Assembly (NCBI GenBank): GCA_016938015.1
Contig: JAFGVL010000043.1
Coordinates: 1-36,862 of the forward strand
Reading direction: 5' to 3'
DNA: 36,862 bases
Source of the DNA: Paludibacteraceae bacterium
GTDB lineage: Bacteria > Bacteroidota > Bacteroidia > Bacteroidales > Paludibacteraceae
Shown here one piece after another: positions 1,552 through 34,818 of this stretch; the first letter of the stretch is position 1; every line of letters starts with the position of its first letter. Below the pieces are notes generated by a model, which worked only from the letters and a program-made list of their open reading frames with translations, did no database searches and was not told where the DNA came from. Position numbers and translations under genes: made by a program.

Positions 1552-1595
1552 AATAAAAAAATGGTTTAAAAAATTATTAATTGTTTGTATTCGTT

Positions 1596-2885: not shown

Positions 2886-2895
2886 AATAATATTT

Positions 2896-3975: not shown

Positions 3976-3983
3976 TTTTTAAA

Positions 3984-4063
3984 ATGTTTATTTGTTTATT
4001 TGTTGAATTGTTTATTTTCAACTTGTTAACATATTAACATGTCAACAAGTTAACATGTTAGAT
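3984..4063. repeat. Degenerate 8-bp tandem array (about 10 units)
   Basis: Almost the whole 82-bp spacer between the SDR and kinase genes splits into ten successive octamers with consensus close to TTGTTNAN: for example ATGTTTAT, TTGTTTAT, TTGTTGAA, TGTTAACA, TATTAACA, TGTCAACA, AGTTAACA. The last unit overlaps the end of the SDR gene. The right half also folds: 4019-4032 pairs with 4039-4052 at 12 of 14 positions. It may act as an mRNA processing or attenuation element inside the operon; function unknown. Confidence 0.65.
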
Positions 4064-4876: not shown

Positions 4877-4901
4877 TATATTTTAAAATAAAGTTAATTT
4901 A

Positions 4902-6152: not shown

Positions 6153-6191
6153 AATTCTTTTTTTAAGGTTAATTATATAGTTAATTTATTA

Positions 6192-7166
6192 TTAAATATT
6201 GTAGAAGTTTTTATAATCCTCGATATTTTCTTTAAATAAAATATCGATAGGCATATAGTTAGTTTGGTTGGGTGTGCGTTTTAATATTATTTTTCGGCAC
6301 ATATCTCTAACCGAATAATAGGCCTGTCTTTCGGGGCGTTGCGCTATTAAACAATAAATGACACCTCGTTTTAAGTAGCGCACGTTAAGGTCTAATAAAT
6401 CATATCCAATTATTCGAATATTTTTTCGGTTGAATGAAGCCAAGTGCATGGCCAGTCTGTTTACTTTTGAATTAAAAGTAATAGCGGCTTTAATATTATG
6501 GTAGGTGGCAAAGATTTGTTCCAGTAGTTTAAAATTATAATCTTCATCGTTTTCAATAAACTCAACATCAATATATTCCACATAACCGGTTAGTTTATTG
6601 TCTTTAATATATTGCATAAATCCGTCGTAGCGAGAAATGGTTTGAATAGCTTCAGTACCTTTTCTTTTAGTTCGAATTATCATTATTTGTGCATCTTCAG
6701 GCACATCATTAATTAGTAATTTACTTGCAATATAGCCGCTTTGAAAAGAATTTTGTCCGTAATAGGAAATAGGGTTGGTTTCAGGCAAGAAACTGTCTAT
6801 AAATGAATACGGAATATTTTTATTGTCTAGTTTTTTTAAAAGAGACAGTGTTTCTTCTTTAAAGATAGGAGCAATAATTACCGCATCGGGTTTTTCGTCA
6901 ATTATTTGCTCCGAAATTTGTAAAAAAGATTGTACATCGTATTGGTCGAAGTATTTTTTTTCGATAGTGATATTATAATGAGCAAAATCAGTAGCTGCTT
7001 GATTGAACCCATTATCAACACTTTCCCAATAATCTTTGGGTTGATAAGCGGGAAGAATGCAAACAAAATGTTGTGTCTTTTTTGATGCAAACTCTTGAAT
7101 TTCAGAAGATTTGATATTTTTCATATCTTCAGAAATCGAATCATTAAGAATGGATTCATTTCCCAT
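6192..7166 (-). CDS. LacI-type periplasmic-binding-like sensor without HTH domain
   Basis: The 324-aa protein is a sugar-binding, periplasmic-binding-protein-like domain of the LacI regulator type. FASKKTQHFVCILPAYQ (residues 26-42) matches the hinge and start of the core, followed by DYWESVDNGFNQAA, DAVIIAPIF, YIASKLL, IIRTKRKG and IIGYD. Only about 30 residues precede the hinge, and they do not form a LacI helix-turn-helix. There is also no signal peptide. Stops in all three frames of the upstream 300 bp leave no room for a missing N-terminal domain. It sits where the local regulator of a hexuronate locus would be, divergent from uxaC. It could be a truncated regulator, a dominant partner of another LacI protein, or a ligand sensor with a separate DNA-binding partner. 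Met15 is an alternative start. Confidence 0.8.
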   Translation of the reverse strand: MGNESILNDSISEDMKNIKSSEIQEFASKKTQHFVCILPAYQPKDYWESVDNGFNQAATDFAHYNITIEKKYFDQYDVQSFLQISEQIIDEKPDAVIIAPIFKEETLSLLKKLDNKNIPYSFIDSFLPETNPISYYGQNSFQSGYIASKLLINDVPEDAQIMIIRTKRKGTEAIQTISRYDGFMQYIKDNKLTGYVEYIDVEFIENDEDYNFKLLEQIFATYHNIKAAITFNSKVNRLAMHLASFNRKNIRIIGYDLLDLNVRYLKRGVIYCLIAQRPERQAYYSVRDMCRKIILKRTPNQTNYMPIDILFKENIEDYKNFYNI

Positions 7167-7477
7167 AAAAAGATGATACTTAATGTGTAAGTCTATTATT
7201 TGTTTTATGCAAAGTCACAAAAGTAATACTTATTTTGTGAATATAAAATATTTTGTATCTTCGTGGGCGTTCAAAAAGAAATTCCATTTTAAGTAAGGGT
7301 GTGTGTATCTTTTTGACTATAAGATGTTTTGAATTATTTTGCCCAAAAAAATTGGATATAATAATAGTGTGAAATGCTTTTTAAAAACATCTTTTTAGGG
7401 TTTTTTAGCTAACTGTGTATGCGTTGTTTTTTTCTTAAAAATTGCTAATTTATAATTTCAAAAATATATAAGTTCTT
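7167..7477. promoter_or_regulatory. Divergent regulatory region between the sensor gene and uxaC, with a long uxaC leader
   Basis: This 311-bp AT-rich stretch has no coding sequence. On the plus strand TTTG at 7234-7237 and TATCTTCG at 7256-7263 (18-bp spacer) resemble a Bacteroidota promoter; the spacer contains the palindrome AAAATATTTT (7245-7254), a possible operator. This gives a leader of about 200 nt before uxaC. On the minus strand TACTTTTG (7225-7218) matches the -7 consensus for the sensor operon. The leader has a perfect 10-bp inverted repeat, AAGATGTTTT (7321-7330) with AAAACATCTT (7384-7393), and a late T-rich run. Confidence 0.5.
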
Positions 7478-8884
7478 ATGAAAAATTTTTTAGATAAAAA
7501 TTTTCTGTTACAAACAGAAACAGCTCAAAAGCTTTATCATGAGCATGCAGCTAAAATGCCTATTATCGATTATCACTGTCACTTAATACCTTCGATGGTA
7601 GCGAATGATCACAAATTTAAAACATTAACTGAAATTTGGTTGGGTGGCGACCATTACAAATGGCGTGCAATGCGTACCAATGGAGTGGACGAAAAATACT
7701 GTACAGGAAAAGATACCAGCGATTGGGAAAAGTTTGAAAAATGGGCCGAAACAGTACCTCATACAATGCGTAATCCTTTGTATCATTGGACTCATTTAGA
7801 GTTAAAAACAGCTTTTGGTGTAGAAAAATTATTATCTCCGGCAACAGCTCGCGAAATTTATGACGAGTGTACCGCTAAATTACAAACTCCCGAATACTCT
7901 GCTCGTAACTTAATGCGTAAATATAAAGTGGAAGCTGTATGTACTACCGACGACCCTGTAGACACATTAGAACACCACATTAAAACTAAAGCTGATGGTT
8001 TTGAAATAAAAATGTTGCCCACATGGCGTCCTGATAAAGCTATGGCTGTAGAAGTGCCTGCTGAGTTCCGTGCTTATATGGAACAACTTTCTAAAGCTTC
8101 GGGTATTGCAATTTCTTCTTATTCAGATATGATAGCAGCACTTCGTAACCGTCATGATTTCTTTGCTTCTTTAGGATGCAAGTTGTCTGATCACGGTATT
8201 GAAGAATTCTATGCAGAAGACTATACTGATGCTGAAATCAACGCTATATTTAATAAAGTATATGGTGGAAAAACATTAACTCAACAAGAAATTCTTCAAT
8301 TCAAATCGGCCGTAATGGTTGAAGGTGCTATTATGGATTGGGAAAAAGGCTGGACACAACAATTTCATTATGGAGCAATTCGTAACAACAACAGTCGTTT
8401 GTATAGAAATTTAGGCCCTGATACAGGTTTTGATTCAATTGGAACATTTAGTACAGCTAAAGCGATGGCTAAATTTTTAAATCGATTGGATGATAACAAT
8501 CAATTAGCTAAAACCATTATTTATACGTTAAATCCATCCGACAACGAAGTAATAGCTACTATGATCGGCTGTTTTCAAGATGGTACGGTTGCCGGCAAAG
8601 TTCAATTTGGTTCTGGCTGGTGGTTCCTTGATCAAAAAGACGGTATGGAAAAACAAATGAACGCACTTTCTGTGTTAGGTTTGTTGAGTCGTTTTGTAGG
8701 AATGTTAACCGACTCTCGCAGTTTCCTTTCTTATCCTCGTCACGAATATTTCCGTCGCACCTTGTGTAACCTAATTGGCGATGATGTAGAACAAGGATTA
8801 TTGCCTCACCAAGAGTTGCCATTTATTGGTCAAATGGTTGAAAATATTTCATATAACAATGCCAAAAAATTCTTTAACTTTTAG
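7478..8884 (+). CDS. uxaC: Glucuronate/galacturonate isomerase
   Basis: The 468-aa protein isomerises D-glucuronate to D-fructuronate and D-galacturonate to D-tagaturonate, the first step of hexuronate breakdown in the cytosol. It is an amidohydrolase-fold enzyme: DYHCHL is at residues 31-36, followed by KTLTEIWLGGDHYKWRAM and a typical C-terminal region containing GSGWWFLDQKDGM and LTDSRSFLSYPRHEYFRR. Length is normal. It is the first gene of the plus-strand arm and is followed by a strong hairpin terminator or attenuator before kdgK. Its products feed the epimerase and SDR reductase encoded on the opposite strand. The assignment is secure. Confidence 0.96.
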   Translation: MKNFLDKNFLLQTETAQKLYHEHAAKMPIIDYHCHLIPSMVANDHKFKTLTEIWLGGDHYKWRAMRTNGVDEKYCTGKDTSDWEKFEKWAETVPHTMRNPLYHWTHLELKTAFGVEKLLSPATAREIYDECTAKLQTPEYSARNLMRKYKVEAVCTTDDPVDTLEHHIKTKADGFEIKMLPTWRPDKAMAVEVPAEFRAYMEQLSKASGIAISSYSDMIAALRNRHDFFASLGCKLSDHGIEEFYAEDYTDAEINAIFNKVYGGKTLTQQEILQFKSAVMVEGAIMDWEKGWTQQFHYGAIRNNNSRLYRNLGPDTGFDSIGTFSTAKAMAKFLNRLDDNNQLAKTIIYTLNPSDNEVIATMIGCFQDGTVAGKVQFGSGWWFLDQKDGMEKQMNALSVLGLLSRFVGMLTDSRSFLSYPRHEYFRRTLCNLIGDDVEQGLLPHQELPFIGQMVENISYNNAKKFFNF

Positions 8885-8901
8885 AAGAATGAAATAAAAT
8901 T

Positions 8902-8938
8902 AAATTAAAGTCGTTTTAATAAAGCGACTTTAATTTTT
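8902..8938 (+). terminator. Hairpin terminator/attenuator between uxaC and kdgK
   Basis: ATTAAAGTCG (8904-8913) pairs perfectly with CGACTTTAAT (8925-8934). The stem extends inward through TTT/AAA and outward through two more A-T pairs, and is followed by a T run. It should terminate or attenuate transcription after uxaC, so kdgK either depends on readthrough or has its own start. Confidence 0.75.
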
Positions 8939-8967
8939 GTGTTACCAATTAAAAACAAAAGGAAAAG

Positions 8968-10011
8968 ATGAGTAAAAAAGTTGTAACATTTGGAGAAATT
9001 ATGTTACGTTTAGCTACACCCGGTTTTGAACGTGTAAGTCAGTGTAGTCAGTTTAATGTAAATTATGGAGGAGGAGAGTCAAATGTAGCTGTTTCGTTAT
9101 CTAATTATGGTATTGAAACAGAATTTGTTACACGTCTTCCTAAAAATGATATTGCGGATGCTATTATTGGTACCTTGCGTAAATACAATGTAGGTACAAA
9201 AGAAATTTTAAGAGGAGGAAACAGAGTTGGTATTTATTTTTTAGAAACAGGTGCTGTTACTCGCTCAAGTAAAGTAATTTATGATAGAGCCGGTTCTGCT
9301 ATTGCCGAAATTAAACCGGGTATGGTTAATTGGCGCGAAGTGTTTAAAGATGCCGATTGGTTTCACTGGACGGGTATAACTCCGGCTCTTTCGCAAAGTT
9401 GTGCCGATGCTTGTTTAGAGGCTATAAAAATTGCCAACGAAATGGGCGTAACGGTATCTACCGACTTAAACTATCGTAAAAACTTGTGGAACTACGGAAA
9501 AACCGCTGCCGAAGTTATGCCTGCGTTGGTTGAAGGGTGCGATTTGATTTTAGGAAATGAAGAAGATGCCGAAATGGTTTTTGGTATTAAACCCGAAGGA
9601 TTTAATTCGCATATGACCAAAGGAGATATTAATCCAAAAGATTTTGAATCGGTTTGTAAACAATTGATGGAAAAATTTCCGCGTGCTAAAAAAGTGGTTA
9701 TTTCTATAAGAGGTTCTATTAACGCAAATAGAAATACTTGGAGAGGAGTTCTTTATTCAGAAGGCAGTTTGAAAATTTCGCACGATTACGATATCACTCA
9801 TATTGTAGATAGAGTAGGTGCAGGAGATTCGTTTATGGGTGGTTTAATTTATGGCTTGCTAACGTATGCACCCGATGACCAAAAAGCACTTGATTTTGGA
9901 GTAGCGGCTTCTTGTTTAAAACATACTATTTATGGTGATTTTAATTTAGTTACCGTACAAGAAGTGGAGAAACTAATGGGAGGAGATTCTTCCGGACGTG
10001 TTTCACGATAA
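8968..10011 (+). CDS. kdgK: 2-keto-3-deoxygluconate kinase
   Basis: This 347-aa PfkB-family kinase phosphorylates 2-keto-3-deoxygluconate (KDG) to KDPG. It shows the normal N-terminal GEIMLRL (9-15), GGGESNVAVSLSNYG (34-48), YDRAGSA (105-111) with the substrate arginine, STDLNYRKNLW (164-174), GNEEDAEMVF (196-205) and the canonical DRVGAGDSFMGG (281-292, catalytic Asp287). An AAAGGA ribosome-binding-like motif lies about 7 bp before the ATG. The next gene is the KDPG aldolase. KDG formation needs a mannonate or other dehydratase that is not in this window. Compare the divergent paralogue at 2896, which has GGGD in place of GAGD. Confidence 0.93.
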   Translation: MSKKVVTFGEIMLRLATPGFERVSQCSQFNVNYGGGESNVAVSLSNYGIETEFVTRLPKNDIADAIIGTLRKYNVGTKEILRGGNRVGIYFLETGAVTRSSKVIYDRAGSAIAEIKPGMVNWREVFKDADWFHWTGITPALSQSCADACLEAIKIANEMGVTVSTDLNYRKNLWNYGKTAAEVMPALVEGCDLILGNEEDAEMVFGIKPEGFNSHMTKGDINPKDFESVCKQLMEKFPRAKKVVISIRGSINANRNTWRGVLYSEGSLKISHDYDITHIVDRVGAGDSFMGGLIYGLLTYAPDDQKALDFGVAASCLKHTIYGDFNLVTVQEVEKLMGGDSSGRVSR

Positions 10012-10028
10012 ATAAAAATTAAAAATGT

Positions 10029-10097
10029 AAAGTTAAAATTGAAAGAAATAGTATTCTCCTTTCTTTCAACTTTTAACTTTTAACTTTAAACTTATAA
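10029..10097. repeat. Period-7 array forming a long intercistronic hairpin
   Basis: The spacer between kdgK and kdgA holds heptamers TTTCAAC, TTTTAAC, TTTTAAC, TTTAAAC on the right side. Segment 10029-10048 (starting AAAGTTAAAATTG) is complementary to 10060-10080 over about 20 bp with one bulge and an 11-nt loop. This should form a stable mRNA hairpin between the two coding regions, possibly setting the ratio of kinase to aldolase. Confidence 0.6.
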
Positions 10098-10099
10098 AA

Positions 10100-10768
10100 G
10101 TGGCTCGATTTAATAAAATTCAAGTAATTTCAAAAAGTGTAGAAACAGGCATAGTTCCTATTTTTTATCACAAAGATATTGAGGTAGCTAAACAAGTAGT
10201 AAAAGCATGTTATGAGGGTGGAATTCGTGTATTTGAGTTTACAAACCGTGGTGATTTTGCTTCCGAAGTTTTTGGCGAATTGGTTAAGTTTGCTCAAAAA
10301 GAATGTCCGGATATGATTATGGGTGTTGGTTCTATTGTGGATGCTCCAACAGCAGCTTTGTATATCCAATTAGGAGCTAATTTTATTGTAGCGCCATGCT
10401 TTAATGCTGAGGTTGTAAAACTAACCAATAGCCGATTAATTCCTTATATGCCCGGCTGTGGATCTATGACAGAAATTGCAACTGCACAACAAGCAGGATG
10501 CGATGTGTGCAAATTATTTCCGGCCGATGTGCTTGGAACATCATTTGTTAAGGCGGTAAAAGGTCCTATGCCTTGGACTAACTTAATGATTACAGGTGGA
10601 GTAAAACCTGAAGAAGCAAATATAAGAGGCTGGTTTCAAGCAGGAGCTTCTTGTGTGGGTATGGGTTCTAACCTTTTTCCCGGAGAGGTTTTAGCTGCAA
10701 AAGATTGGGCAAAAATTACCCAACTTTGTAAAGATGCATTGGCTATTGTAAAAGAAGTACGTAAATAA
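10100..10768 (+). CDS. kdgA: KDPG/KHG aldolase
   Basis: The 222-aa class I aldolase splits KDPG into pyruvate and glyceraldehyde 3-phosphate, finishing the Entner-Doudoroff end of hexuronate catabolism. The catalytic Glu46 lies in FEFTNRGD (45-52), the phosphate/active-site segment is PYMPGCGSMTEI (115-126), and the Schiff-base Lys138 is in VCKLFPA. GGVKPEE and GASCVGMGSNLF near the C-terminus complete the barrel. The start is GTG at 10100; no closer in-frame ATG precedes the conserved core. It follows kdgK after an 88-bp hairpin-forming spacer and precedes the transporter gene by 28 bp. Confidence 0.94.
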   Translation: MARFNKIQVISKSVETGIVPIFYHKDIEVAKQVVKACYEGGIRVFEFTNRGDFASEVFGELVKFAQKECPDMIMGVGSIVDAPTAALYIQLGANFIVAPCFNAEVVKLTNSRLIPYMPGCGSMTEIATAQQAGCDVCKLFPADVLGTSFVKAVKGPMPWTNLMITGGVKPEEANIRGWFQAGASCVGMGSNLFPGEVLAAKDWAKITQLCKDALAIVKEVRK

Positions 10769-10796
10769 ATTGATATATAACTTAAATTAAATTATT

Positions 10797-12332
10797 ATGG
10801 TAGAAACAATCAGAGAAAAAATGACGAAGTACAGATGGACCATCTGTTCGATGTTGTTTTTTGCTACAACAGTTAATTACTTGGACCGACAAGTACTTTC
10901 TTTAACATGGAAGGACTTTATTGCTCCGGAGTTCCATTGGACAGATGGAGATTATGGTAATATTACCGCTCTTTTTTCTATTTTTTATGCTATTAGTATG
11001 TTGTTTGCCGGAAAAGTTGTTGACTGGTTAGATACTAAAAAAGGCTTTTTATGGGCAATTGGAGTGTGGTCTCTTGGGGCTGTGCTTCATGCTTTTTGTG
11101 GAATTGCTACTTCGGGTATAGTTGCCGGAGAGTGGTTTGTTGGTTTTGAAGGTGCTAAAGAAGCTATTGGTGGAGTTGACAATGTGGCAATGGTTGTTAA
11201 TGTGAGTGTTACCTTGTTTATTTTTGCACGTTTTGTATTGGCGCTTGGTGAAGCCGGTAACTTCCCTGCAGCCATTAAAGCTACAGCCGAATACTTTCCG
11301 AAAAAAGACCGTGCTTTTGCAACTAGCGTATTTAACGCCGGTGCTACTGTTGGGGCTTTAGCTGCTCCTGTTACGGTTCCTGTTATTGCTCACCATTGGG
11401 GTTGGGAAATGGCATTTATTGTAATTGGTGCTTTAGGATTTATTTGGATGGGTATGTGGGTGTTTATTTATAAAAAACCGGATGTGCATCCAAAAGTAAA
11501 TAAAGCTGAATTAGAGTATATTAACCAAGATCATGCTGCCGAAATTGCAGCTAATGACGGAAAAGCATTGGTTAACAGAACCATGAGTTTCAAAGAAATA
11601 TTAAAATACAAACAATCATGGGCATTTATTTTTGGTAAATTTATGACTGATGGTGTGTGGTGGTTCTATTTATTCTGGACTCCTGCTTATTTAAGTTCAG
11701 TATACGGTTTGTCGTCAGATAATCCTCAAGCTCAATTGTTGTTGTTTGTGTTATATGCAATTACTTTATTATCAATTATTGGTGGTTGGTTGCCTACTTA
11801 TTTTGTAGATAAACAAAAAATGAATCCTTATGCAGGTAGAATGAAAGCGATGTTGATTTTCGCATTCTTCCCTCTATTGGCATTGTTTGCTCAACCTCTA
11901 GGTGCTTATTCATATTGGTTCCCTGTATTGATTATTGGTATTGCCGGAGCGGCACATCAATCATGGTCGGCTAATATTTTCTCTACGGTAAGTGATATGT
12001 TCCCTCGTACAGCCATTGCTACTGTAACAGGTATTGGTGGTTTGGCCGGTGGTATTGGTTCGTTTTTAATCAATAAAGGATCGGGTATGTTATTCGATTT
12101 TTCTAGAGGAACTACCTTGGTAAATGGCGAAGAAGTAATTATGACTGATGAGATGATTGCTGCCGGAGCAGAGTTTATTCGTCAGCCTCTAGCATTAGTT
12201 GGTTACGAAGGAATAAAAGCCGGTTATTTAGTTATCTTCAGCATTTGTGCGGTAGCTTATTTAATTGGTTGGGTAGTAATGAAAACATTGGTGCCTAAAT
12301 ACAAACCTATTACTCTTCAAGAAAAGAAATAG
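10797..12332 (+). CDS. exuT: Hexuronate transporter, MFS family (ExuT-like)
   Basis: A 511-aa major facilitator superfamily protein of the anion:cation symporter branch, expected to import glucuronate and galacturonate across the inner membrane. The start YRWTICSMLFFATTVNYLDR is characteristic of ExuT-like carriers, and GEAGNFPAAIKATAEYFP, ATVGALAAPV and GWEMAFIVIGALGF follow. About twelve hydrophobic helices are visible. It is longer than E. coli ExuT (about 430-470 residues) because of an extra loop around residues 100-130 and another near the C-terminus. It is the last gene of the uxaC-kdgK-kdgA arm and ends just before a strong terminator. Confidence 0.88.
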   Translation: MVETIREKMTKYRWTICSMLFFATTVNYLDRQVLSLTWKDFIAPEFHWTDGDYGNITALFSIFYAISMLFAGKVVDWLDTKKGFLWAIGVWSLGAVLHAFCGIATSGIVAGEWFVGFEGAKEAIGGVDNVAMVVNVSVTLFIFARFVLALGEAGNFPAAIKATAEYFPKKDRAFATSVFNAGATVGALAAPVTVPVIAHHWGWEMAFIVIGALGFIWMGMWVFIYKKPDVHPKVNKAELEYINQDHAAEIAANDGKALVNRTMSFKEILKYKQSWAFIFGKFMTDGVWWFYLFWTPAYLSSVYGLSSDNPQAQLLLFVLYAITLLSIIGGWLPTYFVDKQKMNPYAGRMKAMLIFAFFPLLALFAQPLGAYSYWFPVLIIGIAGAAHQSWSANIFSTVSDMFPRTAIATVTGIGGLAGGIGSFLINKGSGMLFDFSRGTTLVNGEEVIMTDEMIAAGAEFIRQPLALVGYEGIKAGYLVIFSICAVAYLIGWVVMKTLVPKYKPITLQEKK

Positions 12333-26406: not shown

Positions 26407-28863
26407 ATGAAATATACTCTCCAACAAATAGCTCAAATTATTAATGCCAAATTGATTGGTAATCCCGACACTTCTGTAAGTTATTTGTTAACTGATAGTC
26501 GTGCAGTTTCTTTTCCTGAAGAAAGCTTGTTTGTGGCAATCAAAACTCCTCGCAACAATGGTCATAAATATATAGCCGACCTCTATGAAGCTAATGTGCG
26601 TAACTTCTTAGTAAGTGAAAAACCTGCGAATTCAAAAGATGCCAATTTTCTATTGGTGGATGATACGCTTAAAGCGATGCAAACCTTAGTGGCTTTTCAT
26701 CGCACACAATTTAAAGTTCCCGTGGTTGCTATTACCGGTAGCAATGGTAAAACCATTGTAAAAGAGTGGTTGTATCAATTGTTGCAAAAAGATGCTGTTA
26801 TTACGCGTTCGCCTCGTTCGTATAATTCGCAAATAGGAGTACCTCTTTCTGTTTGGGAAATGAATGCACAAACACAATTGGGTATTTTCGAAGCGGGTAT
26901 TTCGTTTCCGGGAGAGATGGATAAATTGACCCCTGTTATTGCACCAACTATTGGTATTTTTACTCATTTGGGGGAAGCACATCAAGAAAACTTCTCTTCG
27001 CTGAAAGAAAAATGCAACGAGAAATTGAAGCTTTTTAAGAACTCTGAAGTGCTTATTTATAGAAAAGACGATAAACTGGTAGATATTGCTTTTTCGCAAT
27101 CGGGTATTAAAGCTAAACCCTTTACTTGGGGAAAAAGTCAGGAGGCTGATGTTATTTTACAAGAAGTGAAAAAACAACATGGCAGCACAGCAATTTCTTA
27201 TACGTATAAAGGAAAAAATGATGAAATCACTATTCCTTTTAGCGATGAGGCTTCCATTGAAAATAGCTTGCATTGTTTAGCCTTGCTTTTATATTTGGGT
27301 AAGGATATACGTGTAATAGCCGAACGCATGCAACAACTCGAAGCCCTTGCTATGCGCCTCCAAGTAAAAGAAGGGTTGCGTAATTGCATCATCATCAATG
27401 ATTATTATAATTCTGACTTAAGCTCTTTGGCCATTGCACTCGATTTTCACCAAAGTCAAGCTCGTACCAAAGGTATGAAGCGTACGCTAATTTTGTCGGA
27501 TATTCTGCAAAGTGGACAAAAACCGGCAGAACTTTATAAAAGTGTGTCGGAATTAATTCAACATAAAACGATAGATAAATTGATAGCCATTGGTAGTGAA
27601 ATTTCTGCCAACCAAGAATTATTTGCCTTATCGGAACAATATTTCTTTCAAAACACAGAGGCTTTTTTACAATCACCTTTGTTAGGTGAACTGATGAATG
27701 AAGTCGTTTTATTGAAAGGTTCGCGTCAATTTAAGTTCGAAACCATTTCCGAAAAGTTGGAAGCCATTATGCACCAAACCACCTTGGAAGTGGATTTAAG
27801 TGCGTTGATTCATAATGTCAATTATTTCCGTTCATACCTGAACCCCGAAACCAAAATTATGAGTATGGTAAAAGCCTATGGGTATGGTAGCGGTGATATA
27901 GAAGTGGCGCGTACTTTACAACATCATAATTGTGATTATTTGGCTGTTGCTGTTGCTGATGAAGGTGCTGACTTGCGTAATGAAGGTATCCATATTCCTA
28001 TTGTGGTGATGAATCCTGAAATTGGTGCTTTTGGCAAAATATTCGAATACAGATTAGAACCGGAAATTTATAGCAACCGCTTGCTGGAAGCTTTCTTGAA
28101 AGAAGCCGAGAAACAAGGAGAAAGCAATTATCCGGTGCATATCAAAATAGATACAGGTATGAATCGTTTAGGATTTTTGCCTGTAGAGGTAGATCATTTA
28201 ATTGAGAAACTCAACGACCAAAAACAACTGATGGTACGCTCCGTATTTACCCATCTGGCAGGTACCGACGAAAGTGACTTGGATGCGTTTACGGAAGAAC
28301 AAATAAAACGTTATCAAGCCTGCGCTGAGAAGTTTGAAAAGGCATTTCCATATAAGATTATGCGCCATGCTTTGAATTCGGCAGGTGTAGAACGCTTCTC
28401 ACACTATCAATTTGATATGGTGCGTTTGGGTATAGGTCATTATGGTTTTAGTGCTATAGATTCTAAACTTTTGCAAGAAGTATGTACCCTTAAAACTACC
28501 ATCCTACAAATTAAAACTGTTTCTGCCAGTGAAACTGTAGGTTATAACCGCAAAGGTAAACTTACCCGCGATAGTATAATTGGAGTTATCCCAATCGGTT
28601 ATGCCGATGGCTACGACCGTAAGTTGGGTAATGGAGTAGGAAAGGTATTGGTAAATGGAAAGTTGGCTCCGGTTGTTGGCAATGTTTGTATGGATATTTG
28701 TATGATAGACCTTACAGGTATTTCTGCAAAAGAAGGCGATACTGTGGTGCTTTTTGGTCAAGGGAATTCCATTAACAAAATAGCTAATTCTCTACAAACT
28801 ATTCCTTATGAGGTGTTAACAGGTATTTCGCGAAGAGTGAAGAGAGTTTATTATAAAGAATAG
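26407..28863 (+). CDS. murF-alr: Bifunctional MurF ligase / alanine racemase
   Basis: An 818-aa fusion. Residues 1 to about 445 are a MurF-type ligase adding D-Ala-D-Ala to UDP-MurNAc-tripeptide: N-terminal LLTDSRAV, ATP loop GSNGKTIVKEW (111-121), FEAGISFPGEM. The residue after GKT is Ile where many family members have Thr. Residues about 448-818 are a PLP alanine racemase: LEVDLSALIHNVNYF, Lys489 in MVKAYGYGSG, HIKIDTGMNRLGF, and VGYNRKGKL with the catalytic tyrosine region, then GIGHYGF and GNVCMDICMIDLTG. It supplies D-Ala and uses the dipeptide in one chain. This fusion is a known Bacteroidota arrangement. Next gene starts 6 bp downstream. Confidence 0.94.
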   Translation: MKYTLQQIAQIINAKLIGNPDTSVSYLLTDSRAVSFPEESLFVAIKTPRNNGHKYIADLYEANVRNFLVSEKPANSKDANFLLVDDTLKAMQTLVAFHRTQFKVPVVAITGSNGKTIVKEWLYQLLQKDAVITRSPRSYNSQIGVPLSVWEMNAQTQLGIFEAGISFPGEMDKLTPVIAPTIGIFTHLGEAHQENFSSLKEKCNEKLKLFKNSEVLIYRKDDKLVDIAFSQSGIKAKPFTWGKSQEADVILQEVKKQHGSTAISYTYKGKNDEITIPFSDEASIENSLHCLALLLYLGKDIRVIAERMQQLEALAMRLQVKEGLRNCIIINDYYNSDLSSLAIALDFHQSQARTKGMKRTLILSDILQSGQKPAELYKSVSELIQHKTIDKLIAIGSEISANQELFALSEQYFFQNTEAFLQSPLLGELMNEVVLLKGSRQFKFETISEKLEAIMHQTTLEVDLSALIHNVNYFRSYLNPETKIMSMVKAYGYGSGDIEVARTLQHHNCDYLAVAVADEGADLRNEGIHIPIVVMNPEIGAFGKIFEYRLEPEIYSNRLLEAFLKEAEKQGESNYPVHIKIDTGMNRLGFLPVEVDHLIEKLNDQKQLMVRSVFTHLAGTDESDLDAFTEEQIKRYQACAEKFEKAFPYKIMRHALNSAGVERFSHYQFDMVRLGIGHYGFSAIDSKLLQEVCTLKTTILQIKTVSASETVGYNRKGKLTRDSIIGVIPIGYADGYDRKLGNGVGKVLVNGKLAPVVGNVCMDICMIDLTGISAKEGDTVVLFGQGNSINKIANSLQTIPYEVLTGISRRVKRVYYKE

Positions 28864-28869
28864 AAATTA

Positions 28870-29673
28870 ATGAGCACTTTTAAAGAGTATATATTCATTG
28901 TAACTACCCATGAAGCCTACCCAGAAAAGGCTGTAGATTTAGCCCTTCATCTATCCAAAGGATACGAAAAACCTATTTGTTTTGTTTCCTATTTAGATAA
29001 AAAAATAAAAGCGACTAAAGCCGATATAGAAGGCGTGCATCAAACTTGGATGAAGCAATTAAGTGAACACTGTAAAGAAGGCCTGGAAAGTCATGTGTTG
29101 GATAAGAAAGAAGATTTTCATGCCTTTATGGAAAAGGCAGAGGCTTCAATGGTTATTTTTCAATTGTCGGAGAATATAGGTTATAACAAGGTGCTAACTT
29201 TTCTGAAAATATCCCGTGAATTACGCGTACCCTATATTTTTGTAAAACCATATTTTGCTCCTGTAAAGTTGGATAAGGTATTGGTGCCCGTTACTTTTTT
29301 AATTGAAGACAGAGAAAAAGGGCCTTTTAGTAGTAGCTTGGGACGTTTTTTTGGTTCTGAATTACTTATGATGACGGCCAAAGATTATGGTAGTAAAGCC
29401 AAACAGCATACCAATGCCATTTGTACACTGTTGGATAAATTTAAGTTGAAATATCAATTTATTGAAGCCGAGAAAGATAGTTTTAAAGTCGAATTAGAAG
29501 CTGTTCTTCGTAGTGAAAAATTAGGAGCAGGGATGGTTATGATTTCTGCCTCTCGAGAATATGGATTAGATGATTTTTTGTTTGGACCTAAAGAATTAGA
29601 AAGCATTAATCAAGCATCGGTACCTATCATGCTTATTAATCCCCGAGCCGATTTATATGTGCTTTGTGGATAA
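28870..29673 (+). CDS. Universal-stress-protein-like tandem domain protein
   Basis: A 267-aa cytoplasmic protein that appears to be two alpha/beta nucleotide-binding-like halves. The first starts YIFIVTTHEAYPEKAVDLALHL, the second LDKVLVPVTFLIEDREKGPF and ends SVPIMLINPRADLYVLCG, resembling UspA-type domains ending in a PxxxI/V strand. The ATP-binding GxxGxxxxS motif of ATP-binding Usp proteins is not clear, so nucleotide binding is uncertain. It is the last gene of the GSCFA-VC0807-murF-alr operon, 6 bp after murF-alr, and is followed by a bidirectional hairpin. The assignment is by pattern only. Confidence 0.6.
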   Translation: MSTFKEYIFIVTTHEAYPEKAVDLALHLSKGYEKPICFVSYLDKKIKATKADIEGVHQTWMKQLSEHCKEGLESHVLDKKEDFHAFMEKAEASMVIFQLSENIGYNKVLTFLKISRELRVPYIFVKPYFAPVKLDKVLVPVTFLIEDREKGPFSSSLGRFFGSELLMMTAKDYGSKAKQHTNAICTLLDKFKLKYQFIEAEKDSFKVELEAVLRSEKLGAGMVMISASREYGLDDFLFGPKELESINQASVPIMLINPRADLYVLCG

Positions 29674-29676
29674 AAA

Positions 29677-29703
29677 AAGCCGATAGTAAAAAACTATCGG
29701 CTT
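29677..29703. terminator. Bidirectional intrinsic terminator (end of mini-transcript C and of the murF operon)
   Basis: AAGCCGATAGT (29677-29687) pairs perfectly with ACTATCGGCTT (29693-29703), flanked by A and T runs on both sides. On the minus strand the stem is followed by seven T, ending the small transcription unit that starts near 29748. On the plus strand it ends the operon finishing at 29673. Confidence 0.88.
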
Positions 29704-29753
29704 CAAAAAAAAAGTACTACTTTGTTACCAACCAAACGTAAACTTCATATATA

Positions 29754-29780
29754 AGATGCAATTATTTGGGATGGTTGCAG
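29754..29780 (-). promoter_or_regulatory. Putative ECF promoter, copy C
   Basis: CTGCAAC at 29780-29774, a 16-bp spacer, and ATCT at 29757-29754. The same bipartite pattern and spacing occur at 30789-30815 and 34184-34210, the last just upstream of the ECF sigma gene. Confidence 0.55.
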
Positions 29781-29811
29781 TTTAAATTATTAAAATAAGT
29801 TAATTGAGCAG

Positions 29812-30543
29812 TTATTTTATTTCATAGTACTCGACGACCAATTTTGGGTGTTTTGTTGCATCCGGATGGTCGCTTGAGGCAAAAATCAACGATCTATAAA
29901 CTTCTTCTTTTTGTAACATAATCATAAAACCAAAACTAGTGCTTTTATTATCAATAATATCTTGAACAAGAGCTGTTACATCAATATCAAGATAGTCTTG
30001 GGTTCCACTAGTACTTGCAGGTAATAAAACTTCATGAATAGTTGTAGTTGTAGGTTGAGTAGCCCATGTTATTGTATTTTCTTCCCAAGAGGAAATTATT
30101 CTTCTTAAATAAGCTCCATTATCTTTTCCTGAAGTATGTAAAGAGGCTGAAGAATGTAGTCCATCGCTCATTGTTCCAGTTGGATTGTGGAATAACGAAA
30201 GAAAAGCTTTTTTTATGATAGTACCATTAGCTATTGATGAAAAATCAAAATCAATCACACTTCTGTAATAACCAACCATAGAATTTCTTGTCCATGTTAA
30301 AATATCGAATTCAACATCGTTAGCTCTATTTATGTCGGCCCAGCTTCCTGTTGAAATATTTGCATCTTTACCTTCAGCTCCCGGTTGTAAAACCAATGTA
30401 TGATAGACTGTGTCGTTGGTATTTAAACTAACTTTTCTCATAAATACTTCATCGTTATCATCTAAGCAATAACAAGAATGTGTGAAGAATTGTATACAAA
30501 TAAATAATAGAATGTAGGTATAACGATTTTTTTTAGTTACCAT
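29812..30543 (-). CDS. DNRLRE-domain surface lipoprotein (short paralogue)
   Basis: A 243-aa lipoprotein: hydrophobic signal with Cys24 in THSC, then CYCLDDNDE, and from about residue 50 a DNRLRE-type beta-sandwich domain (LQPGAEGKDANI, RSVIDFDFSSI, AFLSLFHNP, SSWEENTITWATQPTT, DIDVTALVQDII, ASSDHPDATKHPKLVVEYY). DNRLRE domains occur in cell-surface proteins and are usually non-catalytic. It is a shorter paralogue of the protein at 30850, lacking the fibronectin-like repeats. Both mature N-termini carry CY..DDND. A TTTG-N20-TTCCTTTG promoter lies at 30614-30645. Probably surface-exposed; ligand unknown. Confidence 0.82.
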   Translation of the reverse strand: MVTKKNRYTYILLFICIQFFTHSCYCLDDNDEVFMRKVSLNTNDTVYHTLVLQPGAEGKDANISTGSWADINRANDVEFDILTWTRNSMVGYYRSVIDFDFSSIANGTIIKKAFLSLFHNPTGTMSDGLHSSASLHTSGKDNGAYLRRIISSWEENTITWATQPTTTTIHEVLLPASTSGTQDYLDIDVTALVQDIIDNKSTSFGFMIMLQKEEVYRSLIFASSDHPDATKHPKLVVEYYEIK

Positions 30544-30613
30544 AATTTAAGTGCAATTTTGGTTTTACAGGATACAATTAGGTTGTTTGTTAAAAGTGGA
30601 TCAAAATTTATTG

Positions 30614-30645
30614 CAAAGGAATTTAAAAAAAATGTTACAAACAAA
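30614..30645 (-). promoter_or_regulatory. Promoter for the short DNRLRE gene
   Basis: On the minus strand TTTG (30645-30642), a 20-bp spacer and TTCCTTTG (30621-30614), one mismatch from TAnnTTTG. The long leader of about 65 nt would precede the ATG at 30543. This is a housekeeping-type promoter, unlike the ECF-type sites nearby. Confidence 0.45.
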
Positions 30646-30710
30646 CTATTTGTTTGATTTGATGATTAAAAATTACTTATGCAATTTTTGAAAATTAAAT
30701 TATAAAATAA

Positions 30711-30815
30711 TGAAGCCGATAGCAAAAACTATCGGCTTCAAAAAGAAAGTACTACTTTGTTACCAACCAAACGTAAACTTCATATATAAGACACAATTTT
30801 TTAAAAAGGTTGCAG
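30711..30815 (-). ncRNA. Putative ECF-controlled mini-transcript, copy B (contains 7-codon ORF MKFTFGW)
   Basis: The order is the same as in copy C: CTGCAAC-N16-GTCT (30815-30789), TATAT, a 7-codon ORF MKFTFGW with TAA (30783-30760), CAAAGTAGTAC, and a hairpin whose arms TGAAGCCGATAG (30711-30722) and CTATCGGCTTCA (30729-30740) pair over 12 bp, followed by ATTATTTT. The region upstream of the promoter and outside the unit is not conserved with copy C, so the conserved block is the unit itself. It follows the long DNRLRE gene. Small RNA or peptide mRNA cannot be told apart from sequence alone. Confidence 0.55.
30789..30815 (-). promoter_or_regulatory. Putative ECF promoter, copy B
   Basis: CTGCAAC at 30815-30809, 16-bp spacer, GTCT at 30792-30789; same layout as the sites at 29754 and 34184. 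Confidence 0.55.
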
Positions 30816-30849
30816 TTGATGAATGTTAAAGAAAGCTAATTGTTGTTTT

Positions 30850-32133
30850 TTAATAGTAAACAACAACCAATTTTGGGTGTTTAGTACTATCAGGGTAGTC
30901 GCTCGAAGCAAAAATCAAACCTCTGTAATAGTCTTCTGTTTGAAGTATTAGCATCATACCGTAACTGCTTGTTTTATTGTTTATAATGCTCTGAATTACG
31001 GAAGTTATGTCGATACTTGGGTAGTCTTGATGTACATCTGTGCTTGGTGGAATTATTGCTTGACTTTCGTCAGTTGTTGCCGGTTGGGTATTCCATGTCA
31101 CAGTGTTTTCATCCCAATATTGAGTAATTCGTTTTACTAATACAGCATTATCTCCTCCGGTTGTTGGATAAGTGTTGGCATCCGAATGTTTACCGCTATT
31201 ATTTTGAGATGTAGGATTGTTGTATAAAGAAAGGGTGGCACTTTTTATCATGCTACCTTCTGGTATTGTTGAGAGATCAAAATCTAATAGCGATCGAGTT
31301 ATGAATTTAATTCCTGAGTATGTCCAGGCCATTATATCTATATCAGGACCACTTCCACTCGTAGCGTCGGGAACCCTACTGTTTATATATGCATCTTTTC
31401 CTTCTGTCGAAGGTTGAAGGCTTAAAACAGATAGCGTTTTAAAAGATACTTCATTTCCATAAATAACTTTACTTGCGTTTGTGGCATACGCTCTTACGTA
31501 ATATTTTGTACCACTTGTTAATCCGGTTAAAATAGCTTTAAAAGAACCGGAACCTTCTCCGGATGAAGATTTAAAATCATTAATGGTTGGATTTGGATTT
31601 GTACTCCAACACACCCCCTTATCTGTTATAAAAAAATCTGAGATGGAAGCAACCGTTCCTCCTAAAATTGCAGTTGTAATGTCAATGCTATCTGCAGCAG
31701 ATGTAGCTATTGAAGAAAATTCGCCCAAAGTAGTAAAAGATATAGTATTGCTATATCCAATTCCTTTTTTGTTAATAGCATAAGCTCTTACATAATAGGT
31801 TGTAAGCGGCTGTAAATTTTCAAGTTTTACCGCATAAAACGATGAATTGTTTAAATCAACTAGTTTTGAATCTGAAATAGTGGGCTCTTTTTGTGTATTC
31901 CAACAAATACCTCTTTCTTCAACTGGACTATCTCCATCGTCAACTAATTCTGCATGGATGGTTGCTGTAAAAATACTGATATTTAAACTGTTAGTTGTTT
32001 GTATGTTGGGAGTTTTGAGTAAAACAATATCGTTGTCGTCAAAAAATGAATAGCACGAATTCAATAAAAATGGGAGGGTAAAAACTAGGAGGTAAAAGCG
32101 TTTTTTTTTATTCTTTAAAAAAAAGATACTCAT
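30850..32133 (-). CDS. DNRLRE-domain surface lipoprotein with two fibronectin-III-like repeats
   Basis: A 427-aa lipoprotein: Cys27 in LLNSC, then CYSFFDDND. Residues about 48-136 and 141-234 are two Fn3-like repeats sharing GxCWxTxxxPTIxD and YYVRAYAxN. Residues 238-427 are a DNRLRE domain (LQPSTEGKDAYI, RSLLDFDLSTI, ATLSLYNNPT, QYWDENTVTWNTQPAT, SIDITSVIQSII, ASSDYPDSTKHPKLVVVYY), clearly paralogous to the protein at 29812. It lies downstream of the sigma factor and small envelope protein genes on the same strand, 92 bp after the latter. Likely an extended surface protein holding its DNRLRE domain away from the membrane; binding target unknown. Confidence 0.82.
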   Translation of the reverse strand: MSIFFLKNKKKRFYLLVFTLPFLLNSCYSFFDDNDIVLLKTPNIQTTNSLNISIFTATIHAELVDDGDSPVEERGICWNTQKEPTISDSKLVDLNNSSFYAVKLENLQPLTTYYVRAYAINKKGIGYSNTISFTTLGEFSSIATSAADSIDITTAILGGTVASISDFFITDKGVCWSTNPNPTINDFKSSSGEGSGSFKAILTGLTSGTKYYVRAYATNASKVIYGNEVSFKTLSVLSLQPSTEGKDAYINSRVPDATSGSGPDIDIMAWTYSGIKFITRSLLDFDLSTIPEGSMIKSATLSLYNNPTSQNNSGKHSDANTYPTTGGDNAVLVKRITQYWDENTVTWNTQPATTDESQAIIPPSTDVHQDYPSIDITSVIQSIINNKTSSYGMMLILQTEDYYRGLIFASSDYPDSTKHPKLVVVYY

Positions 32134-32225
32134 AAAGTGAAAAGGATTTGCATGATTTAACTATAAAACATAAAATGGGTTAAATTGTTTATGAGTAAAG
32201 TTGTTTTTTTTTGAACAATTACCTT

Positions 32226-32894
32226 CTAATTGGGTTTTCCAAATTTATAAATGATTTGTAAACTACATCCAATTCCTATATCAAAGGTTGAGTTGTAGGA
32301 AGTTTCTTCGGCATAGAAAGGTTTTATAGGACTAATAATGTGTATTATTTCATTGTATTCTTTGTTGCCGGCAACATTATTTCGCCAGCCACAATAAATG
32401 CTTGGAGCAATATTTATTGAGAAGCTTTTGTTAATAGAATATACAAATCCAAGTTTTAGATGGTTGTTGTTTTGTGGCGGATAATCTCTACCAAAAGGAA
32501 AATACCACATACTTGTTATTTCAGGAAATAGTGAGAATTGAGAAAATAATTTAATGTTTGAACCGAATCCTATTCCGCCAATCAAAGGTTGAGCTAAATT
32601 AAAGTTGGTTCCAACTGTAAGTGTTAAAAAATAAGATTTGTAGTTGATAGTTGATAAAACGCCAATGTTTTCGTAATCGGAAGTTATGATTGCTATTTCT
32701 TTAAAAAATTGAAAATCAGACTTTTTTTTGTCGTTTATTTTCTCAACAGCAGTTCTTTTGGGTATAGTTAATGTATCATACACTACAAGAGTGTCAGTTA
32801 TAAAAAGTGTATCTTGTAGGTTGTTGTTGCGCGAAAAACTAGTAACAAAGCATCCTAATAGTCCAATTGAAAGTATAAATAACTGTTTTATCAT
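32226..32894 (-). CDS. Small secreted or outer-membrane protein, possible beta-barrel
   Basis: A 222-aa protein with an N-terminal export signal (MIKQLFILSIGLLGCFVTS). The LLGC at 12-15 could also be a lipobox. After a short linker with repeated DT residues, the rest alternates hydrophobic and polar residues with many aromatic positions and strand-like segments such as SYFLTLTVGTNFNL, GFGSNIKLFSQFSLFPEI, LKLGFVYSINKSFSINIAPS and a final CSLQIIYKFG, typical of an outer-membrane barrel. I do not recognise a named family. It is 106 bp downstream of the ECF sigma gene and precedes the DNRLRE lipoproteins, so it is probably part of the same surface module. Confidence 0.6.
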   Translation of the reverse strand: MIKQLFILSIGLLGCFVTSFSRNNNLQDTLFITDTLVVYDTLTIPKRTAVEKINDKKKSDFQFFKEIAIITSDYENIGVLSTINYKSYFLTLTVGTNFNLAQPLIGGIGFGSNIKLFSQFSLFPEITSMWYFPFGRDYPPQNNNHLKLGFVYSINKSFSINIAPSIYCGWRNNVAGNKEYNEIIHIISPIKPFYAEETSYNSTFDIGIGCSLQIIYKFGKPN

Positions 32895-33000
32895 ATTTAT
32901 TTTTTACAAAGTGCAAAAATAGATAAAACATTGAGACTTTAAGTACTTGTTAATAAAAAAAGCTTTGTATCTACTTATATAAAAGCCTTAACAATTTTTT

Positions 33001-34167
33001 TTAGTTTTCATTTTCGTCAATTACAACTTGTTTTCTAACAACTACTTGTTTACGTATTACCACAGGTTCAGTTTTTTTACTACTGTCAATGGTTATAGGC
33101 TCATTGGTTTGTATAGGCTTATCTGTTGTTTGAATACTTGTTGAGTTGTTTTCTACGGGTTCTTGTTTACTAGTATTCTTAGTTATTGTAGATGCTGAAA
33201 GAGTTTGTTTTTCCTTTTGTGTTACTTCCTGTGTTATTGGTTTGCTAACTTTTTTATAATCAGATTGCGGCAAACTGTCTTCCTGTAAAATTGGCGTTGC
33301 ATTTTGTATTGGTGTTTCAATTGTTGGTTGAATGTGAATAGGTTCTTTTTTAGAGGAGTATTGTTGGTAGGCAATAATCCCTATTAAACTGGCACTTACA
33401 ATACCAATACCCCAATAAATAACTGAAGAAGATTGAAAAAAGCCAACTTTAGGCAGAGGAGTAGTTGTTTTATTGTTAGCAATCAATTTTTTTAATGTGC
33501 TAGATTGATTAGGAACAGCCAGTTTGAAATCGGAAAAAGATTTTTTATACAAACGATCAATATAGTTGGCTTTTGCTCCTGCTGTAAACAGAGGCAAACC
33601 AAGTAATATTTTCTTACGTTTATCTTTTTCTTTTTTCATTTCCAGTGTTTTTTCAACCAATAGCGCCTGAATTTTTTTTCGAGCTCTAGATAAATGTGAT
33701 TTTGAGGTGTTTTCTTCAATATCCAGCACTTCGCTTATTTGTTTGTGAGAATAACCCTCAATGACATATAAATTAAAAACTGTTTTGTGATGTAGTGGAA
33801 TTAAATCAATAACTTCCAATAAATCTTGTTGTGAAAAATGGGCGTTAGTAATCAATGCTTGTGCCGAACTATCAGTAGTTTCAGGAGTTATTTCATCGGT
33901 AATAAATACTTCATCAACATCGGTAAAGCTATTTTTTTTACTGTTTCGAATATATTCCAGTACATTATTTAGCACTACCTTTTTAAGCCAACCTTCTAAT
34001 GAGCCGTGTCCATTAAAAGTGTGGGCGTTTTCTATGGCTTTAATAAATCCATCGTGAAGCAAGTCTTCAGCAAGTTGACTGTCGTGTACATATCTTCTGC
34101 AAATACCTAATAATTGACCAGCTTGTTGTTTGTATATTTTATTCCAATCAAAGTTATTTTTGCTCAT
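33001..34167 (-). CDS. ECF-type sigma factor fused to a transmembrane helix and extracytoplasmic tail
   Basis: A 388-aa protein. Residues 1-75 hold sigma region 2 (QLAEDLLHDGFIKAIENAHTF, then GWLKKVVLNNVLEYIR). Residues about 112-175 hold region 4 (DLIPLHHKTVFNLYVIEGYS, HKQISEVLDIEENTSKSHLSR, RKKIQALL). Usual ECF factors stop near here. This one continues with a basic linker, a single membrane helix at about 248-268 (VIYWGIGIVSASLIGIIAYQ) and a 118-residue Thr/Ser/Gln/Pro-rich tail ending in repeated VVRKQVV. Predicted topology: sigma domains cytoplasmic, tail in the periplasm, as if an anti-sigma-like anchor were built in. A CTGCAAC-N16-ATCT site 17 bp upstream of the start suggests autoregulation. 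Release by proteolysis is a hypothesis. Confidence 0.85.
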   Translation of the reverse strand: MSKNNFDWNKIYKQQAGQLLGICRRYVHDSQLAEDLLHDGFIKAIENAHTFNGHGSLEGWLKKVVLNNVLEYIRNSKKNSFTDVDEVFITDEITPETTDSSAQALITNAHFSQQDLLEVIDLIPLHHKTVFNLYVIEGYSHKQISEVLDIEENTSKSHLSRARKKIQALLVEKTLEMKKEKDKRKKILLGLPLFTAGAKANYIDRLYKKSFSDFKLAVPNQSSTLKKLIANNKTTTPLPKVGFFQSSSVIYWGIGIVSASLIGIIAYQQYSSKKEPIHIQPTIETPIQNATPILQEDSLPQSDYKKVSKPITQEVTQKEKQTLSASTITKNTSKQEPVENNSTSIQTTDKPIQTNEPITIDSSKKTEPVVIRKQVVVRKQVVIDENEN

Positions 34168-34183
34168 CCCTTTACTATTTGTT

Positions 34184-34210
34184 AGATGTATTTTTTTTAA
34201 AAAGTTGCAG
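34184..34210 (-). promoter_or_regulatory. Putative autoregulated ECF promoter of the sigma gene
   Basis: CTGCAAC at 34210-34204, a 16-bp spacer that is T/A-rich, and ATCT at 34187-34184, followed by the ATG at 34167. Spacing and both elements match the sites in front of the two mini-transcripts. Confidence 0.55.
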
Positions 34211-34281
34211 TTGTGGTTAAACTATTTTTAAATAGCTCTAATTATTTTTTATTTTTCTCTAAAACAGGCAGATGTAAAAAA

Positions 34282-34818
34282 CTATTCTTCTTCTGCCAAG
34301 TCCAAATTTACTAAACCTTTGGGCAAAATCATATGAATAATTTGGTTTTTTTCATCAATAGACGAAATAAAATCATCGGTAGCAGGTATGAGTAACTCTT
34401 TTCCGTCAAAATCTAGTATAAAAAGTGTATTTTCTGTGCCAGTATCAACTTCTATAATTTTACCTAACGAACCAAGCTTTTGTTCTTGCACTTCGAATCC
34501 CACAAAATAATTTATCTCCAATTCTTGCTCCGTTTCTTTGAGTGCAAATTGTTGGTGTATGTAAATGGTTTTATTGCATAGTTCGCGAGCTTGTTCGTCG
34601 GAGTTTATCCCTTCTAGTTTAACCAGTGCAGAACTAGTTGTTTTGTACCTGAAGTTTTCAATAAAAAAAGGTACTAAAAGACCCTCAATTTCAAAAATGA
34701 AGTAAGGCATATTTTCTTCATCAAAGTTGTTCCTCGAAAAAATAAAAGAAATTTCGCCTTTTACCCCATGAGGTTTGACAGTTTTACCTACTTCAACTAC
34801 TTCGTTTTTTGTAATCAT
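34282..34818 (-). CDS. rimM: 16S rRNA processing protein RimM
   Basis: A 178-aa ribosome maturation factor acting on the 30S head with protein S19. The N-terminal domain begins EVGKTVKPHGVKGEISFIF (VGKTxxPHGxxGE), and the C-terminal PRC-barrel includes GSLGKIIEVDTGTENTLFIL, then LLIPATDDFI and MILPKGL. The start is set at ATG 34818 (MITKNEVVEVG). A 52-residue upstream in-frame extension lacks family similarity and would overlap the rpsF promoter. It is divergent from rpsF-rpsR-rplI, grouping ribosome-related functions. rpsP is not adjacent. Confidence 0.93.
   Translation of the reverse strand: MITKNEVVEVGKTVKPHGVKGEISFIFSRNNFDEENMPYFIFEIEGLLVPFFIENFRYKTTSSALVKLEGINSDEQARELCNKTIYIHQQFALKETEQELEINYFVGFEVQEQKLGSLGKIIEVDTGTENTLFILDFDGKELLIPATDDFISSIDEKNQIIHMILPKGLVNLDLAEEE

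Follow-up and report, generated by a model that had tools for sequence, protein, structure and literature searches.

A sigma factor and a degenerate anti-sigma segment in one chain, predicted to be membrane-tethered, beside a conserved gene for a protein with a complementary strand motif in Paludibacteraceae

How might a sigma factor that appears to carry its own membrane anchor be held in check, and how might it be let go? The question is raised by a reading frame in a 36,862-nucleotide stretch of DNA from a Paludibacteraceae bacterium (assembly GCA_016938015.1, contig JAFGVL010000043.1; hereafter the window). It had been proposed from the letters of this stretch that complete sigma regions 2 and 4 are followed by one transmembrane helix (residues 248-268) and a periplasmic tail of 118 residues, merging sigma and anti-sigma-like tethering in one chain. 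We analysed the protein, P0001, together with its neighbours and relatives. Its parts are as follows.

33001-34167, minus strand: fused sigma/anti-sigma reading frame (P0001), 388 amino acids, ATG to TAA; from the reading frame list, Pfam and TIGR02937
33937-34134, minus strand: sigma region 2, residues 12-77; Pfam, above cut-off
33670-33828, minus strand: sigma region 4, residues 114-166; Pfam, above cut-off
33490-33576, minus strand: degenerate anti-sigma domain beginning YIDRLYKKSFSDF, residues 198-226; HMM score and alignment with the relative L117
33370-33426, minus strand: predicted transmembrane helix, residues 248-266; hydropathy
33004-33363, minus strand: presumed extracytoplasmic tail, residues 269-388, low complexity
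33019-33066, minus strand: basic C-terminal strand PVVIRKQVVVRKQVVI, residues 368-383; summed alignment with 13 relatives

Both sigma regions exceeded their Pfam cut-offs, and P0001 scored 86.6 bits against TIGR02937 (sigma70-ECF; cut-off 42.9), which places it among the ECF sigma factors. In an AlphaFold2 model built from 41 rows, most of the sigma part, up to about residue 190, had a pLDDT above 90, a helix at residues 200-212 reached about 66, and the transmembrane helix and most of the tail stayed below 50; the topology of P0001 therefore rests on hydropathy and homology. The best Foldseek matches of the model were ECF sigma factors, several of them in structures solved with anti-sigma factors. 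Hydropathy identified a single hydrophobic helix, with the best 19-residue window at residues 248-266 (mean 1.95), a value matched in 24 of 2000 shuffles of residues 173-388. By itself this helix is only moderately above chance, and a helix at the same position recurs in relatives. We thus confirmed that the reading frame encodes a full ECF sigma factor, one predicted transmembrane helix and a tail, as in the original prediction, with the tail running for 120 residues after residue 268 rather than 118.

The architecture was also found in relatives. Matches at E-values up to 1e-27 were present in 246 of 393 genomes of the order, several of them running past the sigma part in one reading frame. 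Among 20 neighbourhoods retrieved from genomes of the same order, 17 contained a fused reading frame, one a helix-less form of 249 residues, and two split pairs; by our hydropathy threshold, 12 of the fused reading frames first obtained have the helix, and L074 (the same gene as L117) and L162 fell short of it. A search of the phylum at a strict threshold of 1e-36 was passed by 5 of 395 genomes, namely the window's own and those of four species of one genus from another order of the same class, which have single-reading-frame relatives and one of whose genomes is a single contig. The fused form is present, too, in the isolate Runella sp. MFBS21, there without the DT partner described below. 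The draft genome that contains the window is in 130 contigs, and metagenome assembly could in principle have joined two genes by mistake. Uninterrupted reading frames with this layout recur in many other genomes, including one assembled as a single contig, and this recurrence rules an artefact out for practical purposes, leaving it a vanishingly small probability.

Fused forms were found alongside many stand-alone sigma genes. The best 80 genome-contig loci comprised 66 with a stand-alone sigma, six with a fused form, one with a long form that has no helix by the threshold, and seven in which no sigma reading frame was called. A single-protein query over genome contigs returned no relatives, whereas an alignment query did recover them. 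Within the window's family, 87 of 300 genomes matched, and among the matches listed the query never aligned past residue 107 of 227, save in the window's own genome. Some same-frame sigma/anti-sigma pairs have long apparent open frames; at the four loci that we read, these proved to be split genes parted by a stop, not fusions. The other close system in the window's own genome (G000 C12, L134 1872-3115) is a split sigma/anti-sigma pair with a 4-base overlap and an anti-sigma of 210 amino acids, and no partner gene, of the kind described below, adjoins it.

In most relatives the sigma stops at about 185 amino acids and is followed by a separate gene encoding a juxtamembrane domain, a helix and a tail; to judge by sequence, these adjacent sigma and transmembrane anti-sigma genes are of the Das/Dma (ECF21) kind. 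A scan of 61 loci in the window's family gave 46 distinct downstream reading frames that start with an anti-sigma-like segment followed by a helix, after leaving out two copies of the window, one unrelated short reading frame, two picks in the wrong frame, five refetched or near-identical loci, and five loci without a downstream reading frame in reach. Scored against an HMM of separate anti-sigma N-termini, the post-sigma segments of the fused relatives L124-L126 reached 19 to 21 bits, that of P0001 reached 8.8 bits (best of 1000 shuffles, 8.1), and several fused relatives were near or below zero. Residues 173-245 of P0001, which exclude the helix, align with the fused L117 (z 10.9); the juxtamembrane part gave no significant alignment with flavobacterial L262 or L263 (z 0.9 and 1.3). 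One anti-sigma-like gene that stands apart from its sigma, P0002 (L144), matches the fused L129 of the same sigma clade over its length, from the start as far as the tail (E = 8e-11), and its first 75 amino acids alone align with L129 at z 15.3. Because the post-sigma piece of the fused proteins is homologous to separate anti-sigma factors, P0001 is a sigma/anti-sigma fusion. The proposed merging of the two functions in one chain is thus upheld by homology, with the qualification that the sigma-binding segment of P0001 is degenerate, and inhibition of the sigma may therefore come from tethering alone.

In a quick tree of 78 sigma domains, P0001 fell within a 22-row group (SH-aLRT 99) of 18 fused and four unfused rows. 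Eight of the fused rows have other periplasmic parts, mostly WG repeats. Two of the unfused rows, L137 and L144, have the anti-sigma as a later gene; the other two, L123 and L146 (249 and 245 amino acids), have no helix. Orthologues of this last kind had been expected to tell against a tethered sigma, and the two inside the clade do so in part, but they look like truncated side forms. Chains consisting of a sigma, a transmembrane helix and a barrel (8 rows, support 100) lie far from the P0001 group, beside ordinary split rows, and fusion therefore arose at least twice; fused genes may also have split again.

The sigma-helix-barrel reading frames (L062, L063, L100-L103, L106, L107) have the helix right after region 4, followed by a linker and a C-terminal barrel-like part. 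They are probably chains of the type of Dma3 from Bacteroides thetaiotaomicron, with which they are equated by layout only, and they have a different upstream motif (TGCAGTCTTTT, by eye). A further set of fused sigmas (L115, L118, L130, L131, L157, L159, L162) has a WG-repeat-like extracytoplasmic part and lacks the tail strand; ten WG repeats were found by Pfam in L118, and those in the other loci were recognised by eye.

The main new observation is a link between the end of the tail, a basic strand of beta type, and the adjacent gene on the same strand, which in the window has the following features.

32226-32894, minus strand: partner gene, 222 amino acids, with a signal peptide and an acidic DT strand; its C-terminal part is homologous to those of the partners in L114 and L117
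32769-32813, minus strand: acidic strand motif of the partner, DTLFITDTLVVYDTL, residues 28-42; motif pattern

Tail-bearing fused members end like PVVIKKQIIKRKTVVIRDTV, and the corresponding strand of P0001, PVVIRKQVVVRKQVVI, is without the final DT of its relatives. Local alignment of the window's tail with that of L117 scored 56 (1 of 500 shuffles as good), and the scores summed over 13 relatives came to 496, which none of 500 shuffles reached. With a leave-one-out tail HMM, nine of 14 members beat all 1000 shuffles; the number of shuffles as good was 58 for P0001, 27 for L124, 19 for L120, 239 for L128 and 832 for L122. The HMM result is thus not significant for P0001, whose tail pairwise alignment does support. 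The partner motif, which resembles DTVYVYEDVIVYDTV ("DTVYVYxxVxVYDTV"), lies in a signal-peptide protein encoded by the next same-strand gene. A single regular expression detected it in the next gene of 16 of 17 tail-bearing members, in none of five others (four WG-type members and the helix-less L123), and in 1 of 1008 background reading frames taken from the fetched loci with known partner-holding loci excluded. The seventeenth tail-bearing member, L125, has a differently spaced DT motif, and L128, where the contig ends, was left uncounted. In the split L132 and L144, an anti-sigma with a similar tail is encoded beside a DT-partner gene. We infer from this link that the basic tail strand pairs with the acidic strand of the partner.

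The window's partner aligned with the partners in L117 and L114 at 49.6 and 45.6 bits, respectively (best of 200 shuffles, 10.1). When nine partners were compared with the outer-membrane barrel family PF13568, L119 scored over the cut-off and L124 and L126 just under it. The window's own partner had no Pfam match, a BLAST search of 197 further genomes from the order found no relative of it, and a single-sequence AlphaFold2 model of it was uninformative; its description as an outer-membrane barrel therefore comes from homology to the other partners, and it most likely sits in the outer membrane.

The partner might instead be an ordinary outer-membrane protein that is co-transcribed with the sigma and whose acidic strands bind something else, in which case the sigma would sense through its own tail. 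Consistent with this, the barrel parts of the partners diverge widely, and WG-repeat relatives do without both the tail strand and the DT partner (four were checked for the partner), a finding that we also count against a clasp between tail and partner. However, almost every tail-bearing member has the DT motif next to it, none of the tested members lacking that tail does, and the motif is very rare elsewhere; we regard an ordinary partner as quite improbable. As for the combination of a basic tail strand with a separate DT partner, no description was found in the literature covered on sigma/anti-sigma fusions, Dma/ECF21 and ECF240; the original Dma1 paper and the 2021 ECF classification lay outside that scope.

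The operon also appears to have a promoter of its own.

34184-34209, minus strand: sigma-type promoter TGCAAC-N15-CATCT, 5' of the sigma gene; pattern searches

CTGCAAC sites had been put forward as targets of the sigma. The heptamer alone occurs at chance frequency (4 in the window, against a mean of 2.96 in shuffles), whereas the full two-block promoter is above chance. A relaxed form of the promoter was found 5' of 11/15 fused, 3/8 WG-type, 6/46 split and 0/8 Dma3-type genes, with a background of 0.75% of 4000 random stretches; the match in L121 falls just after a start that is probably mis-called. The strict pattern occurs at six sites in the window's genome (reversed control, 0), of which three are in the P0001 locus, two are 5' of genes for secreted proteins (C72, C106) and one is inside a reading frame (C33). 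In the four flavobacterial species (L261-L264, one genus of another order), the promoter heads a conserved operon of a secreted protein, the fused sigma and the DT partner. We infer that these promoters are read by the P0001 sigma.

A sigma-type promoter was also seen within the coding sequence of 5 of 12 partner genes (L114 3941, L117 1600, L119 3615, L121 3993, L129 3511), 29-44 nt 5' of an in-frame ATG that is followed by a signal-peptide-like stretch. Codon-shuffle controls contained such a promoter in 1-12% of cases per gene, and wherever both promoters are visible, base variants of the internal one track those of the promoter 5' of the sigma gene.

The degenerate anti-sigma domain and imperfect tail motif of P0001 could point to a decayed system, in which the sigma, left with only a relic of an anti-sigma, is constitutively membrane-bound or inactive. 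Against this, the sigma domain is intact with a confident fold, the promoter is conserved, and the architecture has lasted across orders; we consider decay highly improbable.

A tethered sigma/anti-sigma layout is itself already known, because IutY and Dma3 are earlier fusions. Like IutY of Pseudomonas putida (ECF243), P0001 combines an ECF sigma, one transmembrane segment (by hydropathy only in P0001) and an anti-sigma-derived extracytoplasmic part in a single chain. The two belong to different phyla, and the tail of P0001 ends in a basic strand. IutY pairs with the TonB-dependent receptor IutA, whereas the neighbour of P0001 is a small secreted DT-strand protein, probably a barrel, and no reading frame of receptor size lies between 28870 and 36776. 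Within the Bacteroidota, PMC13088901 describes Das/Dma proteins of B. thetaiotaomicron as an N-terminal anti-sigma domain, a helix, a disordered tether and a C-terminal barrel, encoded beside an ECF21 sigma, and Dma3 as having an N-terminal sigma domain. P0001 resembles Dma3 in joining an ECF21-type sigma to a transmembrane anti-sigma, and resembles the Das/Dma pairs in its homologous sigma and in the order of anti-sigma domain, helix and tether. It has the transmembrane helix and a low-complexity tail, with the anti-sigma domain degenerate. By contrast, the pairs are two genes with the barrel inside the anti-sigma, and the barrel of the Dma family is C-terminal on the same chain, whereas P0001 ends in a basic strand and the barrel-like part is the next gene. 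P0001 also falls in a clade separate from the Dma3-type rows, which were picked by layout. A review covers further ECF groups with extensions, and its Table 2 puts ECF240, represented by Chryseobacterium scophthalmum SIO28919.1, in the mechanism class 'Others' (PMC8999054); members of ECF240 are listed as sigma factors with regulatory extensions, a trait that P0001 shares, and flavobacterial L261-L264 may belong to the group. The same review assigns zinc-finger anti-sigma domains to ECF48, ECF52 and ECF53 of Actinobacteria (PMC8999054). These three groups share with P0001 a C-terminal fusion with a transmembrane, anti-sigma-like part. They are not known to have a comparable outer-membrane partner. 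What appears to be new here is a partner that carries its strand in a gene of its own, together with the basic end of the tail, an anti-sigma segment that is degenerate, and the RNA-like elements described below.

The explanation that we favour, with modest confidence, is a sigma and anti-sigma in one chain whose tail is clasped by an outer-membrane partner, loss of the clasp leading to proteolytic release. The sigma domain would be cytoplasmic and held at the inner membrane by one helix, and the tail would extend flexibly into the periplasm. In the resting state the partner's acidic DT strand would hold the C-terminal basic strand of the tail and so shield the tail end. Disturbance of the partner, or binding of a signal, would expose the tail, and proteases of the Prc/CtpA and RseP kinds would trim it and free the sigma domain. 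The freed sigma would then act at TGCAAC-N15-CATCT promoters to transcribe the operon in which it lies, further genes whose products are secreted and, in this genome, the two short RNA-like elements. The release step is modelled on IutY, which is freed by Prc and RseP (PMC5411451), and the protective clasp on FoxA, whose signalling domain binds the C-terminal domain of FoxR and guards it against proteolysis (PMC11637429). The window's genome contains a fragment of a site-2 protease (RseP-like), which is partial, lies at a contig end and scores under the cut-off.

A switch without proteolysis would have the chain stay intact: as the partner pulled on the tail or slackened it, the juxtamembrane segment would allow the still membrane-bound sigma domain to engage polymerase. 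In Dma anti-sigmas a disordered tether bridges the distance between the cytosol and the outer membrane (PMC13088901), and P0001 with its partner has that layout in two pieces. Since the layout alone is silent on the mode of release, and IutY, the best studied sigma/anti-sigma hybrid, is released by proteolysis, we think an intact-chain switch rather unlikely. The fused protein, encoded in many related bacteria beside a probable outer-membrane partner, points to a compact signalling line that would connect the cell surface with the DNA. Experimental work on natural sigma/anti-sigma hybrids covers very few cases. The P0001 family is conserved over two orders or more, and its partner, promoter and tail motif can all be recognised, so that sigma release from one tethered chain becomes testable. 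The family would also show how the same signalling line can be built when the transmembrane anti-sigma and the outer-membrane sensor are divided or combined differently, and could tie a Bacteroidota envelope response to small RNAs.

Downstream of the partner gene are two putative lipoprotein genes and two RNA-like elements.

30850-32133, minus strand: putative lipoprotein with FN3-like and DNRLRE/CBM96 domains; domain search, lipobox by eye
30711-30814, minus strand: putative small RNA, copy 1; sigma-type promoter at 30789-30814, terminator hairpin at 30711-30740
29812-30543, minus strand: second putative lipoprotein, with a DNRLRE/CBM96 domain; domain search, lipobox by eye
29676-29779, minus strand: putative small RNA, copy 2; sigma-type promoter at 29754-29779, terminator hairpin at 29676-29704

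The two elements are 91% identical over 94 nt. In each, the promoter is followed by some 40 bases that hardly vary and then by a terminator hairpin that folds strongly (fold z of -7.3 and -5.6). Rfam gave no match over 28800-34400, and no convincing copies were found among 60 relatives. Judged from these features, the elements are likely to be sigma-dependent small RNAs, or to encode a leaderless 7-residue peptide, MKFTFGW. More broadly, and as a speculation that we put forward tentatively and with considerable doubt, the locus may represent a widespread trans-envelope switch in two pieces. A sigma covalently tethered to its degenerate anti-sigma would be held across the periplasm through its basic C-terminal strand, which would pair with an acidic strand in the outer-membrane partner. 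The targets of that sigma would include the operon that encodes it, a promoter inside the partner gene that in some species yields a clasp-free partner and, in this genome, the twin small RNAs. The Bacteroidota would then have their own equivalent of the envelope-stress sigma regulons that include small RNAs.

One RNA-like element lies after each of the two related lipoprotein genes (29812-30543 and 30850-32133), an arrangement that would fit duplication of gene and element together. Elsewhere in the window, positions 103-12332 hold a likely hexuronate-use cluster, recognised from translations read by eye.
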